From the NCBI RefSeq assembly GCF_004798665.1, contig NZ_CP039292.1:2604001-2668000 (forward strand): a stretch of DNA of 64,000 bases, given 5' to 3'. The position numbers were made by a program, and so were the translations under genes. The stretch is from Actinomyces procaprae (lineage in GTDB: Bacteria; Actinomycetota; Actinomycetes; Actinomycetales; Actinomycetaceae). Positions 13,374 through 54,630 of this stretch are shown one piece after another (positions within the stretch are counted from its first letter, which is position 1; each line of letters starts with the position of its first letter). A model generated the notes under the pieces. The model was not told the origin of the DNA. It saw nothing but the letters and a program-made list of their open reading frames with translations, and did no database searches.

Positions 13374-13511
13374 ACCGAGGTCGGTAGATCTTACGTACCG
13401 AGGTCGGTAGATCTTACGTACCGAGGTCGGTAGATCTTACGTACCGAGGTCGGTAGATCTTACGTACCGAGGTCGGTAGATATGACGTGCCGAGGTCGGT
13501 AGATATGACGT
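13374..13511. repeat. Six-copy 23-bp tandem array (delta-1)
   Basis: Six contiguous 23-bp units. Each has the constant core CCGAGGTCGGTAGAT, itself containing the inverted repeat ACCGA-GG-TCGGT. Four units then read CTTACGTA and the last two ATGACGTG. The array begins 12 bases past the stop of the sirtuin gene and occupies the space before the ABC transporter start. The boundary toward 13374 is a C-rich tract (G-rich on the other strand), as in the two related arrays further right. Confidence 0.95.
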
Positions 13512-17262: not shown

Positions 17263-17430
17263 ACCGACCTCGGCGGTTATATCTACCGACCTCGGCACGT
17301 AACATCTACCGACCTCGGCGGTTATATCTACCGACCTCGGCACGTAACATCTACCGACCTCGGCGGTTATATCTACCGACCTCGGCACGTAACATCTACC
17401 GACCTCGGCGGTTATATCTACCGATCTCGG
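17263..17430. repeat. Alternating 22/23-bp tandem array (delta-2)
   Basis: Units alternate between a 22-bp form (ACCGACCTCGGCGGTT then ATATCT) and a 23-bp form (ACCGACCTCGGCACGT then AACATCT), giving a 45-bp higher-order period for three and a half cycles and a last partial unit (ACCGATCTCGG) that runs into GTGAGGGGAGGG. On the complementary strand the core is the same as in delta-1. The array ends 38 bases from the stop of the CMD gene. Confidence 0.95.
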
Positions 17431-23981: not shown

Positions 23982-24040
23982 CCCGACCCGCTGAACCCAT
24001 CTTCATCCCTGATTCGTCGGCGCCATTGGATGGGCTCAAA

Positions 24041-24152
24041 ATGTCCAAAACCGGCACAAACGAGCCCGCCGCAGCGAGAGAGCCACCGGAATCATGCGGT
24101 TGTGAAACCGGCTCGTAGCGCCGAATCCGACGTTTGCGCCGATTCCGGACAT
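24041..24152. repeat. Inverted-repeat element E2
   Basis: A 112-bp element with ends ATGTCCAAAACCGGCACAAA and GCGCCGATTCCGGACAT, internal CCGGAATCATGCGG, and the same layout as E1 and E4. It lies 60 bases after the XRE gene. Confidence 0.75.
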
Positions 24153-24242
24153 TCTGCGGCCTCGTCGGCCAAGCGACCGGGCCGCAGCGCCGCTTCAACC
24201 GATCACGGCACATGACTTGGCTCTTCCGGTTTGTGGGCGGCG

Positions 24243-24571
24243 GTGGTCCGGGTCGGGGTGTGGTGGTCGCTGTCGGGAGCGGGAGGGCGAGTTCGGGTAT
24301 GCGAGGACGTTTTCGGGGCGGCGAGGTCGCACTCGGGCGCGCCAGGTCGTACTCGGGCGGTCGGGCGGGGTCGTTCTGGGGCTTGGGAGGACGTCTTCGG
24401 GCCGACGAGGTCGTATTCGAGTACCCCACGCCGGTCGAATACGACCTCATCCGCCCCAAACCCTCCACATTCGGTAGGGTTTCGGGCTGACGAGGACGTT
24501 TTCGCCGAACCCGGGACGTTTTCGGGTAGATGAGGTCGTTCTCGGGCCGACGAGGACGTTCTCGGGCTCGT
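24243..24571. repeat. 20-bp-phased alpha array in island 1
   Basis: Copies of a degenerate unit (about CGAGGWCGTNCTCGGGC plus three variable bases) start at 24243, 24263, 24283, 24303, 24323, 24343, then 24367, 24387, 24407, and again at 24492, 24512, 24532, 24552. Spacing is exactly 20 bp apart from one 24-bp step and a central block. That block holds one inverted copy (near 24448) and the hairpin AAACCCT / AGGGTTT (24458-24482). Many units are small inverted repeats, CGAG-N6-CTCG. Confidence 0.85.
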
Positions 24572-24779
24572 GGCCGGTGGCAGCTGACGACTCGTTGGAA
24601 TCGCCTGGATCAAGCAGTTCCCGGGTCGCGGTGGCGGCCGTTGGCGACGCCAGCCGGTGATTCCGCTGAGTCCAGCACTTCTGATGCGGCGCCCCGGGCG
24701 CCCGGGGCGCGAACCTGGCCGCCGCGGGGGCGCAGGCTTTTCGCGTACTCACTCGTGCGCCCCGCGCGGGACGCTGCGC

Positions 24780-24952
24780 GACGGTTCGTCATGAACGATG
24801 ACGGTTCGGCAGTTAGCACCAACGATTCGGCATGAACCGCGACGGTTCGTACCTCTAGGTGCCGAACCGTCGCGAGAAGTGCCGAATCGTCGACCGGAGC
24901 GTACGAACCGTCGTCGGAACACACGAACCCTCACGCGGAGGTACGAACCACC
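24780..24952. repeat. Mirror-symmetric 20-bp-phased gamma array
   Basis: Four forward copies of GACGGTTCG (24780, 24800, 24821 as AACGATTCG, 24841) face five reverse copies of CGAACCGTC (24863, 24883 as CGAATCGTC, 24904, 24924 as CGAACCCTC, 24944 as CGAACCACC). Steps are 20 or 21 bp throughout, two helical turns. The innermost pair forms a hairpin, GCGACGGTTCG with CGAACCGTCGC, across CCTCTAGG. Confidence 0.88.
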
Positions 24953-25045
24953 GCACCCGACCTGCCGCGCACGCAACCGACAACCCAGACACATATCAAC
25001 CATCAACCCACCCCACGTCCCAAACGGATGGAGCACGTAACTACA

Positions 25046-25150
25046 ACCGACCTCGGTACGTAAGATCAACCGACCTCGGTACGTAAGATCTACCGACCTC
25101 GGTACGTAAGATCTACCGACCTCGGTACGTAAGATCTACCGACCTCGGCG
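25046..25150. repeat. 23-bp tandem array (delta-3)
   Basis: Four full 23-bp units and a partial one, each ACCGACCTCGGTACGTAA then GATCT (GATCA in the first). Complemented, the core is CCGAGGTCGGTAGAT-like as in delta-1. The last partial unit grades into GCGAGGGGGGCGG and ends about 11 bases from the LysR stop. Confidence 0.95.
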
Positions 25151-40507: not shown

Positions 40508-40617
40508 CCAGACATCGCGTCATCGGCAGAAATGTCCATCGGTGCCGACTTTCACCGCAACCAGCCCTTAGTTTCACGGCTCTTCGTGTTTGTGGGTGTG
40601 GTGGTTCGGGCTCGCGG

Positions 40618-40735
40618 GTGGTCGTGTTCGGCGCGGACGGGTCCGACTTGGTGGTGGTGTTCGGGACTGGGAGGTCGTGCTCGGGCGTGCGGGAAGCGAG
40701 GTCGTGGGTCCTGCGCGGACGTTCTGAGGCTGACG
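40618..40735. repeat. Degenerate alpha units
   Basis: Units resembling GAGGTCGTGCTCGGGCG occur at 40618, 40651, 40671, 40698 and 40715. Only the 40651-40671 step keeps the 20-bp spacing, so this stretch is an eroded alpha array. Confidence 0.5.
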
Positions 40736-40815
40736 ACGACGTCACCGGCGGCGGGGATGTCCTCGGGGCGGTGTCACGGGCGTGGAGCGAGTGGGATCGA
40801 GGCCAGGGCACGGTC

Positions 40816-40875
40816 GTTGGGTACGCCCCTTCGGCGTCTGCTACGCCCCATTGGCGTCTGCTACGCCCCTTCGGC
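40816..40875. repeat. 20-bp beta array (three units)
   Basis: Three contiguous 20-bp units, GTTGGGTACGCCCCTTCGGC, GTCTGCTACGCCCCATTGGC and GTCTGCTACGCCCCTTCGGC, followed by a diverged CTCCGCTGAAGG end and CAGCAGAC. Confidence 0.9.
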
Positions 40876-41196
40876 CTCCGCTGAAGGTCCCAGACCCCTT
40901 CACTTCAGCAGACACCCAACCGGCGTAGTAAACAGGCGCTTCCGGTTTGGGTTGTGGCGTTCGGCCGGGGCTGTGGTGCGGGGGTGGTTGGGGTGATGCG
41001 GTCGTGCTCGGGTCAGTGCGACATCGTCGGACCGCCGAAGACGCTCTCCCGGAAGGCACCCTCGAGGGCCGGGGCGTGTCCTCTAGCAGCCCCGCCAGGT
41101 CATCTGGACCGGCTCGTCGTGCTCGTGGATGTGGCGGCCGGCGTGTCTCCGGGTGAGGAAACCGGTGGGCCTGCCGGCTCGACACGGCGACCGCCG

Positions 41197-41330
41197 CCCA
41201 GCTGTCACTGATTGCACCATTTTACCCGCCCGGACGCGAGCCACCTAGCACACATCGTTGAAATCATGCGGTTCTGTCGACCAGGTTCCCGGCATGGCCA
41301 GCGAAAGTGGTGCAATCTGTGACAGCTGGG
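41197..41330. repeat. Inverted-repeat element E5
   Basis: A 134-bp element whose ends CCCAGCTGTCACTGATTGCA and TGCAATCTGTGACAGCTGGG pair almost perfectly; pairing continues inward (CCATTTT / AAAGTGG). The internal motif is CGTTGAAATCATGCGG. It is the most diverged of the five at its ends but keeps size and centre. Confidence 0.8.
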
Positions 41331-41390
41331 AGCACCATCGGATGCTCACCGGCGCTACGCGTTTGCGGGCGTGGCGGTACGGGCCCGCAG

Positions 41391-41516
41391 GTGGTCGCGC
41401 TCGGGTGTACGAGGTCGTGCTCGGGCGTGCTGTTCGGTGTGCACCGGGCCGGCTAGGAGGTCGTGCTCGGGCGCGTGGGGTCGCGCTCGAGCGCGCGGGC
41501 ATGCTCGGGGCGCCGA
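41391..41516. repeat. 20-bp alpha units in island 2
   Basis: Units GTGGTCGCGCTCGGG (41391) and GAGGTCGTGCTCGGG (41411) are 20 bp apart; GAGGTCGTGCTCGGG (41457) and GGGGTCGCGCTCGAG (41477) are another 20-bp pair, with a degenerate stretch between. Confidence 0.65.
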
Positions 41517-41911
41517 GGGCGTTGTCCGCCGGGCAGGGGCGCCCTCGCCGCGGCCGGGCGGAGTGCTCGAGGACCCGGTTTGAACCTCCACGGCGCCGGC
41601 TCACCACGCCAGAACGCCAGGCCTGGCTGCACTTGGCTGCCGACAGCTCCGGCGCCCGGAAGCGGGACCGTCTGCTGCGCCACCCCCGGTCTACTGCGCC
41701 GCTTCGCCATCTGCAACGCCACTTCGGGGTTAACAACGCCAGTTAACCGTCTGCTGAAGGCCCCAGGGGTATACAGCAGAGCGTTAAGTAGCGTTGTTAA
41801 CGCCCAGCCGACGCACCAGACACCCCACCCCACCCCATGCCATGTCCCAGGGAATCGGCAGCACTCCTGCCCCAGCCCAAGACAACCACCACACCCCCAA
41901 ACCGGAAGAGC
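41514..41911 (-). repeat. Left arm of a 400-bp inverted repeat
   Basis: The reverse complement of this stretch matches 53595-53994. The inner ~290 bp differ at about five positions; the ~100 bp nearest the CAAACCGGAAGAGC end are somewhat more diverged. The centre of its hairpin differs as CCCCTGGGG versus CCCCAGGGG, as if flipped. Confidence 0.9.
41670..41768. repeat. 20-bp beta array inside the long repeat
   Basis: Units start at 41670 (GTCTGCTGCGCC), 41689 (GTCTACTGCGCC), 41709 (ATCTGCAACGCC), 41729 (GTTAACAACGCC) and 41749 (GTCTGCTGAAGG): steps of 19, 20, 20 and 20. The same series exists inverted at about 53740-53840. Confidence 0.8.
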
Positions 41912-42034
41912 CACTTCTCCGCTCGGCACGCCGCCCGGGACCTCAAAGCCGCCGGAGGCCGAGGCCAAGCCAACGGGGTGGGCCACCACACGGCGGCCCA
42001 CCCCGGAGTGCTCAGAGCCGAGCGCAGACGCGAC

Positions 42035-53492: not shown

Positions 53493-53594
53493 ATCTTCAA
53501 CTATTCGTCTCACTGCGCATCAGCGCATGGGCGAGCCGGTGCGTATTCGCGATACCAGCCCGCGCCCTGGTACGCGCACCTCCGCGGGTATCGT

Positions 53595-53994
53595 GCTCTT
53601 CCGGTTTGGGGGTGTGGTGGTTGTCTGGGGCGGCGGCAGGAGTGCTGCCGATGTCCTGAGACATGGCATGGGGTGGCGTGGGGGTGTCTGGTGCGCCCTG
53701 CTGGGCGTTAACAACGCTACTTAACGCTCTGCTGTATACCCCAGGGGCCTTCAGCAGACGGTTAACTGGCGTTGTTAACCCCGAAGTGGCGTTGCAGACG
53801 GCGAAGCGGCGCAGTAGACCGGGGGTGGCGCAGCAGACGGTCCCGCTTCCGGGCGCCGGAGCTGTCGGCAGCCAGGTGCAGCCAGGCCTGGCGTTCTGGC
53901 GTGGTGGGCCGGCGCCGTGGAGGTTCAAACCGGGTCCTCGAGCACTCCGCCCGGCCGCGGCGAGGACGCCCCTGCCCGGCGGACAACGCCCTCG
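53595..53994 (+). repeat. Right arm of the 400-bp inverted repeat
   Basis: Matches the reverse complement of 41514-41911. The two arms enclose 11.7 kb and nine genes. Identity is highest from about 53703 onward (about five differences in 290 bp by eye). Confidence 0.9.
53707..53779. repeat. Three-tier nested cruciform
   Basis: Outer arms GTTAACAACGC (53707-53717) and GCGTTGTTAAC (53769-53779), middle arms TCTGCTG (53728-53734) and CAGCAGA (53752-53758), and an inner CCCC-A-GGGG. The same structure is present, inverted, in island 2. Confidence 0.8.
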
Positions 53995-54240
53995 CCGGGC
54001 CGAGGGCGTCCTCGGCGGCCCGAAAACGTCCTTGTACGCCCCACAACGACCTGCGCTGGTCGAGCACGTCCTCGTAAGCCCGAAACCCTCCCGAACGTGG
54101 AGGGTTTGGGGATGAAGAGGACGTTCTCGACAAACCAGCACCCACCGAGCACGACCCCGCCGGCCCGAACACGTCCCCGCCAGCCCCACACCGACCTCGC
54201 CGCCCCAGCCACAACCACCGCGAACACCGCAACCCGGACC
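53950..54240 (-). repeat. 20-bp-phased alpha array in island 3
   Basis: On the plus strand the CCTC-type landmark falls at 53970, 53990, 54010, 54030, 54050, 54070 and 54090, exactly 20 bp apart (for example CCGAGGGCGTCCTCG, CCGAAAACGTCCTTG). Then comes the hairpin AAACCCTC / GAGGGTTT (54083-54107) and one forward unit (54117). A second run has landmarks at 54155, 54175, 54195 and 54215. Orientation is opposite to the island-1 array, and the central hairpin is shared. Confidence 0.85.
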
Positions 54241-54285
54241 AAAGCCACCACGCCGGAAGCACCACACCCTCAAACCTGAAGAGCC

Positions 54286-54630
54286 GGTGGACTCCTGCAG
54301 CTGCACCCGCCTGCCGCCGACACGCCCCGGGGCGAACATATCCGCGGCCGGCAAGGACGCCGGCGCCGACACACGTGGGACCGCGGCGGAGAAGTCCTCC
54401 ACTAGTTGGCGCTCCTGGGCCTGGGCGAGGAAGGTCAGGTGCGCTACCGCGTCCTCGATACCAACCTGGCTGGTGCTGGCCCTCCCGGTGAAGCAGTAGG
54501 CGGGGGTCAGCCCGTAGACCTGGCCCGGGCCCAGCACCCCCAGGTGTGCGCTGGCCCAGTCCACCAGCAGCTCACCGGTGTCATCATCCTCAAGATCCTC
54601 CCGTGCCGACACCAGTGTGGTGCAGCCCAT
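54286..54630 (-). pseudogene. Fragment of a DUF1851 (Tdi1-like immunity) protein
   Basis: About 115 codons. LGVLGPGQVYGLTPAYCFTG and AVAHLTFLAQAQERQLVED match the end of DUF1851 proteins (GAD-like/T6SS immunity Tdi1), which normally also have an N-terminal half that is missing here. The frame runs without a stop straight into the repeat island, whose reverse CAAACC-type motif begins where the coding pattern ends. The gene is therefore truncated at both ends, and the repeat island probably replaced its 3' end. It lies 33 bases after the HTH/zinc-ribbon gene. Confidence 0.55.

Follow-up and report, generated by a model that had tools for sequence, protein, structure and literature searches.

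The window analysed here, 64,000 nucleotides of the Actinomyces procaprae chromosome, contains an 817-bp composite non-autonomous transposable element (24219..25035, + strand) with two phased arrays of short repeats, which we have named alpha and beta. The element carries terminal inverted repeats (TIRs) in common with ISL3 insertion sequences, 8-bp target site duplications (TSDs) and no transposase of its own, and it faces empty orthologous sites; that it is an ISL3-type miniature inverted-repeat transposable element (MITE) is near certain. On our preferred reading, to which we give a probability of roughly 0.55, the alpha array is the interior of an old, decayed and gene-free transposon with ISL3 ends, and its core may serve as a site for a putative DNA-binding protein occupying the array in tandem. 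Here, a mobile element of a known kind has an unusual and well-organised interior.

The 20-bp periodicity for which the region had attracted attention is pronounced. In the segment 24243-24571, lag 20 gave the highest autocorrelation of lags 2-100 (0.544), followed by lags 40 and 60, and its score clearly exceeded that of dinucleotide shuffles (0.290 +/- 0.026, z 9.7, 0 of 2000 as high; the top score over all lags in 500 shuffles was 0.414). A unit pattern with a threshold of 12 of 16 letters recovered 12 of the 13 units listed in the preliminary description, the first one (24243) falling below the threshold. Successive spacings were 20, 20, 20, 20, 24, 20, 20, 85, 20, 20 and 20 bp, with the 85-bp interval spanning a central hairpin. 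The array is divided into a left arm of 20-bp units with a single 24-bp step (24243..24423, + strand), the hairpin CCCCAAACCCTCCACATTCGGTAGGGTTTCGGG (24424..24490, + strand) and a right arm of four 20-bp units (24491..24571, + strand). The claim that this sequence is non-coding holds for the alpha array, and so does the absence of a constant-repeat/variable-spacer pattern, since the 20-bp units are degenerate; a CRISPR array would have a constant repeat with unique spacers, and no cas match was found among the eight window ORFs scanned against Pfam. A tRNA scan of the window found none, and a search of plasmid and phage collections with 24219-25035 gave no match, in collections from which records close to this genome are possibly absent.

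What had been described as a stand-alone array of 330 bp is a real array, but it forms part of the larger element with transposon ends. The left TIR GGCTCTTCCGGTTTGTGGG (24219..24237, + strand; G000:C1:2628219-2628233) is exact, whereas the right TIR CAAACGGATGGAGCA (25021..25035, - strand) is decayed, matching at 10 of 15 positions, and was recognised by comparison with the orthologous element L199 of genome G058. In the latter a good right end CAAAACGGAAGAGCC is followed by CGTAACTG, where the window has CAAACGGATGGAGCA followed by CGTAACTA; the left half of the G058 ortholog is divided by contig ends. The TIRs are flanked by the two copies of a decayed 8-bp target duplication, CATGACTT on the left (24211..24218) and CGTAACTA on the right (25036..25043), which agree at 5 of 8 positions. 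The preliminary description can be extended by a second phased array within the same element, the beta array (24779..24953, + strand), whose core CGRCGGTTCG runs first forward and then inverted with cores 20 or 21 bp apart (lag-20 z 5.0 for 24687-25015). The flanks of the element read as halves of the 23-bp repeat unit ACCGANCTCGGCACGTGACTTCT, and the insertion point lies in a 23-bp repeat unit with an HTH gene on one side and a LysR gene on the other. Empty sites were found in G055, G052 and G005, where these two genes are adjacent and the repeat is unbroken; G014 has other sequence at this locus, and G012 has a different TIR element with the duplication GGATTGAC on both sides. Because of these ends, flanks and empty sites, 24219-25035 is best read as a single insertion holding both arrays.

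The adjoining sequence has repeats of its own. A 23-bp tandem repeat, ACCGACCTCGGTACGTAAGATCT, lies at 25046..25148 and is of the type that served as the insertion target. This 23-bp (and 45-bp) tandem repeat family, with the core ACCGAGGTCGGT, occurs in the window at 13374-13511, 17263-17430 and 25046-25148, and repeats with this core are a target entered by ISL3-type elements also at locus L049. To the left of the element, inspection by eye revealed an imperfect palindrome of about 120 bp (ATGTCCAAAACCGGCAC...GAATCATGCGG...GCCGATTCCGGACAT, ~24037-24160), and the G012 element at this locus contains a palindrome akin to it.

The same ends recur throughout the genome (3.6 Mb, one contig). The 15-bp end GGCTCTTCCGGTTTG had 77+80 matches with up to two mismatches against 4+3 for the reversed control, and a 26-bp version had 45+45 against 0. 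The segment 24240-24600 had 44 matches in this genome, of which the best ran colinear for 200-280 bp with 68-87% identity. Fourteen matching loci were read with their flanks, revealing an element bounded by GGCTCTTCCGGTTTG ends; ten had both ends with at most one mismatch each and measured 668-877 bp from TIR to TIR. The ends were degenerate at L043 and absent at L042 and L055, and L048, which lies beside a nested ISL3 copy, was without one of them. Among all 71 end pairs from the fetched stretches, taken without hand selection, 11 had a perfect 8-bp duplication and 23 had one with at most one mismatch, compared to 0.29 and 0.89 for shuffled partners. No perfect duplication of 5, 6, 7, 9 or 10 bp was found among these 71 pairs. 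Restricting the count to adjacent ends gave 6 of 49 perfect and 18 of 49 with at most one mismatch (0.20 and 0.65 when shuffled), and in relatives perfect duplications were present at 10 of 30 end-paired loci, one of them via the second-best pair. According to PMC7643977, the classical ISL3 duplication is 8 bp long. The elements are therefore ISL3-type MITEs with TIRs and 8-bp TSDs, and the view that the array resembles no known repeat class does not apply to them.

ISL3 transposase (PF01610) has nine matches in this genome, all outside the window, and GGCTCTTCCGGTTT ends border both PF01610 genes and array elements. Three elements with the same ends carry PF01610 (3062150-3064775, 2799297-2800618 and 1930325-1931774), the first of them between perfect duplications of GCTATTTC; none of the three looks intact. 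In this 2626-bp element (L090, G000:C1:3062150-3064775) about 1.1 kb of other sequence breaks the transposase reading, a candidate second insertion as judged by eye. In two ISL3 copies, L110 and L064/L069, the transposase frame breaks at one shared point (PF01610 positions 84/86), for which shared decay and a frameshift site are candidate readings. In G058, the 1448-bp ISL3 copy L167 has the same ends, a perfect TSD and a 462-aa ORF matching PF01610 positions 1-218 of 240. From the shared ends and the length of the duplication, we infer that the array elements may be mobilised in trans by an ISL3 transposase.

Ends of Tn7 and En/Spm carry additional sites for the transposase that stem from the terminal repeat, and the array units could be sites of this sort, as the distance from the TIR to the first detected unit is often about 45-90 bp. 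This origin appears highly improbable: the scores of alpha and beta profiles on the TIR did not exceed those on random DNA from the genome (best P 0.15), the gamma units described below reached P 0.011 against the insertion sequence end among 20 tests, and the ISL3 copy L167 lacks a lag-20 signal (z 0.1).

The preliminary description held that sequence had drifted in the alpha array and spacing had not. The 20-bp phase is indeed kept, but the drift is uneven, with core positions changing far more slowly than the rest. In 17 arrays from six genomes chosen by us, 147 of 170 neighbour spacings (up to 29 bp) were exactly 20, demonstrating that the phase is conserved in related species, and neighbouring units at these distances differed at 7.5 of 20 letters. 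Among the end-paired elements scanned, with redundant copies included, the spacing was 20 in 210 of 271 cases (up to 60 bp). A logo of 211 units showed G4, G5, C7, G8, T12 and G14 at 93-99%, variation in the first three letters and near-random composition at positions 10, 18 and 20. The alpha core is an asymmetric 11-bp sequence, GGWCGTNYTCG. The CGAG-N6-CTCG inverted repeats proposed earlier are not the conserved feature, since all seven pairs of the best palindrome axis agreed across the 211 units no better than shuffled columns.

The RNA units of 20 nt that had also been suggested fare no better. If the array were transcribed into an RNA made up of 20-nt hairpin units, the folding of its centre would fit, because the central hairpin had z -5.9 against shuffles (24406-24505) and the whole array z -2.0 and -2.6. 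However, the left-arm units alone folded like shuffles (z -0.2 on the + strand and 0.0 on the - strand), the unit palindrome shows no excess pairing and an Rfam scan of the window gave no match at gathering scores. The lack of excess palindrome pairing and the shuffle-like folding of the left arm led us to reject unit hairpins, and the expressed-RNA explanation as a whole is very unlikely.

Comparisons between paralogous arrays revealed 2.5- to 18-fold less change in the core than elsewhere. In 12 chosen array pairs, homologous units differed by 0.00-0.10 in the core and 0.18-0.55 in the rest, with the core slower in 12 of 12; three arrays of this genome gave 0.040 vs 0.390 and four cross-species pairs 0.048 vs 0.448. 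The eight core positions compared were picked from the 211-unit logo, which draws largely on the same arrays as these paralog comparisons. Simulations of even drift, which cover the picking of units but not the choice of the core, gave core/rest ratios of 0.78-0.86 for the paralog test and 0.97-0.99 for the ortholog test, against observed ratios of about 0.10 for pooled paralogs and 0.32 for orthologs. Unit slippage means that "homologous" units may not be true homologs, and gene conversion could imitate constraint in place.

The ortholog comparison used ten pairs judged orthologous by their flanks, in one orientation, with the pair L162/L175 left out as non-orthologous in the array. The core had changed at 13 of 495 positions and the rest at 61 of 736, about 3-fold less (p=2.4e-5), in a set from which chance units, one misaligned unit and some hairpin sequence had yet to be cleared; after removal of hairpin, gapped and chance units the counts were 11/416 and 46/624 (p=8e-4). 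One pair, L055/L177, showed zero changes in eight units. When palindromic units were labelled in both orientations, no gap between core and rest was found in the orthologs (59/880 vs 76/956, p=0.33). In an analysis free of any core choice, the unevenness of the orthologs over the 20 positions was modest, being reached by 74 of 5000 simulations, and in the cleaned set it was not significant (849 of 5000). The beta core was slower in paralogs (28/388 vs 80/384, p=4e-8), with no significant effect in orthologs (7/170 vs 11/170, p=0.47). Thus, constraint on the core over the history of the family is well supported, whereas constraint in the resident copies is moderately supported and for alpha alone. 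This supports the earlier suggestion of constraint in so far as something in the units looks constrained. Such a slowly changing core amid much more variable letters suggests protein binding.

The same MITE might instead hold its array as a passive satellite, in which slippage or unequal recombination inside a hairpin multiplies the 20-bp units and the spacing is inherited from one ancestral element. Sister copies differ by 20, 40 and 60 bp, as expected from such turnover, and the 24-bp step and the 65/85-bp hairpin gap stand in the same places in many arrays, which indicates descent from one ancestor. Indels that are not multiples of 20 were modestly rarer within the array, at 0.114 and 0.093 per substitution in the two arms vs 0.162 outside (45 non-independent pairs among 10 well-anchored copies). 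Together with the non-significant ortholog unevenness once the set is cleaned and no core is chosen, these observations make the satellite a serious contender, though a less probable one than the binding-site array. It does not readily account for the logo, as even drift would affect all 20 positions alike and leave no six at 93-99% with others near random, nor for the slower core in every paralogous pair and in pooled orthologs. Neither does it predict that array modules without convincing mutual resemblance have a common period of about 20 bp. A binding-site array would have what is observed here, namely a conserved core repeated at a regular spacing near two helical turns.

Support is weak for the other proposal, that the phasing as such is under selection, as the indel deficit in the arms is modest and some sister arrays have a 19-bp pitch. 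A 16-copy analysis that included badly anchored copies showed no deficit in the array (0.165 vs 0.139). A spacing of 20 bp differs slightly from two turns of 10.5 bp. Among 11 alpha and two beta arrays, five alpha arrays fitted best at a helical period of 10.35-10.5 bp and six at 9.65-10.30 bp. For some of the alpha arrays there is a hint that the hairpin gap and the 24-bp step return the sites towards a 10.4-10.5-bp helix register; given the common ancestry of the arrays and the scanning of the period, it is no more than a hint.

The recurrence of this repeat family in two other islands of the window was confirmed, ~40.6-41.6 kb and ~53.9-54.2 kb being the regions with the next-highest lag-20 signal. 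Island 2 (40578..41912, + strand) is a composite C-type element with alpha-like and gamma units between the TIRs GGCTCTTCGTGTTTG on the left and GGCTCTTCCGGTTTG on the right. Island 3 (53594..54285, - strand) reads as a 692-bp A-type element with an alpha array, a gamma module and both TIRs, one mismatch each. No clear TSD was found at either island. Island 3 overlaps the 3' part of a - strand ORF (53497-54630) whose match to T6SS_Tdi1_C falls below the threshold (E 2.6e-5, 24.4 bits, cut-off 27.4), and its insertion may have replaced the end of this ORF. C-type elements (L061, L060; window ~41190-41330) also have, by eye, a further hairpin, GCTGTCACTGATTGCACCA...TGGTGCAATCTGTGACAGC, the centre of which shares ATCAtGCGGTT with the palindrome at ~24037-24160.

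Among the segments from this genome, lag 20 was the best of lags 8-60 in 25 of 26: 11 of 12 A elements (alpha), 7 of 7 B elements (beta), 3 of 3 C elements and 4 of 4 window pieces. Gamma units were spaced at 20 bp in 16 of 16 cases, and beta core spacings below 30 bp were 20 in 37, 21 in 18 and 14 in one of 56. Of the 40 loci fetched from relatives, an end pair was obtained at 30, and for the best pair per locus lag 20 was top in 16, lag 19 in three and lag 17 in four, all of them G005 copies; the remaining seven, including L167, peaked at other lags. Two of the three lag-19 relatives hold delta arrays with TTGGACCGC. Delta arrays (GGTCCAAG / TTGGACCGC) with a pitch of 19 bp occur at L157 and L168 and, by eye, at L203. 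Since some TIR elements have 19-bp arrays or lack a lag-20 signal, the array is not common to all elements. The gamma hairpin (GTTAACAACGC...CTGCTGAAGGC) was found, among the matches listed, at more than 20 places in G055, while G014, G058 and G012 each had more than 10 such places; at L209, one of the G055 examples (L208-L213), no ISL3-type ends lie nearby.

Kinship of alpha, beta and gamma units with each other or with the TIR was considered and is unconvincing once the number of tests is counted. Beta units scored by the gamma profile gave P 0.006-0.014 and gamma by beta profiles 0.10-0.16, while alpha by the gamma profile gave 0.024-0.037 and gamma by alpha 0.56-0.91. The 26-bp end matched in 12 of 49 genus genomes including this one, seven with at least 14 hits and five with one or two. 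In the named collection, where records near this genome are possibly absent, exact ends were confined to 19 stretches from A. glycerinitolerans, A. succiniciruminis, A. ruminis and A. ruminicola. The alpha query matched 6 of 39 genomes, this one included and two weakly, and also G055 and G058, which lie outside the 39.

On the binding-site reading, an ISL3-family transposase would recognise the GGCTCTTCCGGTTTG ends, move the element in trans and duplicate 8 bp of target. The modules within consist of forward units, a centre hairpin and inverted units, and in the alpha module the 11-bp core recurs every 20 bp with freer spacer letters. A putative DNA-binding protein could cover about two helical turns per core copy, in tandem, like initiators on iterons; candidate benefits are element targeting, silencing or insulating, or help with transposition. 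New arrays would arise by unit-wise duplication and then spread by transposition, so that the spacing would be largely inherited, perhaps aided by the binding constraint. A more far-reaching and rather doubtful proposal is that the ISL3-type MITEs of rumen Actinomyces carry interchangeable alpha, beta, gamma and delta cassettes, each with its own host protein, and spread nucleoprotein platforms; alpha to gamma would in that case be tandem arrays of different short sites about two helical turns apart.

In plasmid iterons, as in other arrays to which proteins bind in tandem, a short conserved core returns about every two helical turns with a freer spacer. The alpha array shares this design with iterons but has no replication gene, sits in a transposon and is divided into two halves around a hairpin, and its binder is putative. 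Foldback elements (Drosophila FB, Galileo) have arms of tandem repeats, inverted halves and variable copy number, whereas the Actinomyces element is bacterial, has ISL3 ends and holds its arrays internally rather than as the TIR itself. Tn3-derived miniature elements (TIMEs; PMC4133298) are bacterial, mosaic and non-autonomous like the Actinomyces elements, with Tn3 in place of ISL3 ends. The closest kind is the ISL3-family MITEs, from which the Actinomyces elements differ in that phased arrays of slowly changing short cores make up much of the interior and in several modules that recur in different combinations. A literature search, with subscription journals mostly outside its coverage, found no account of such an ISL3-MITE array family.

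Bacterial MITEs are commonly seen as hardly more than transposon ends. In the present family, much of the body is a regular array whose core changes slowly; it comes in several versions near the same pitch and is spread over several genomes of rumen Actinomyces. Should a protein bind the array, the elements would scatter regulatory or architectural platforms over the chromosome.
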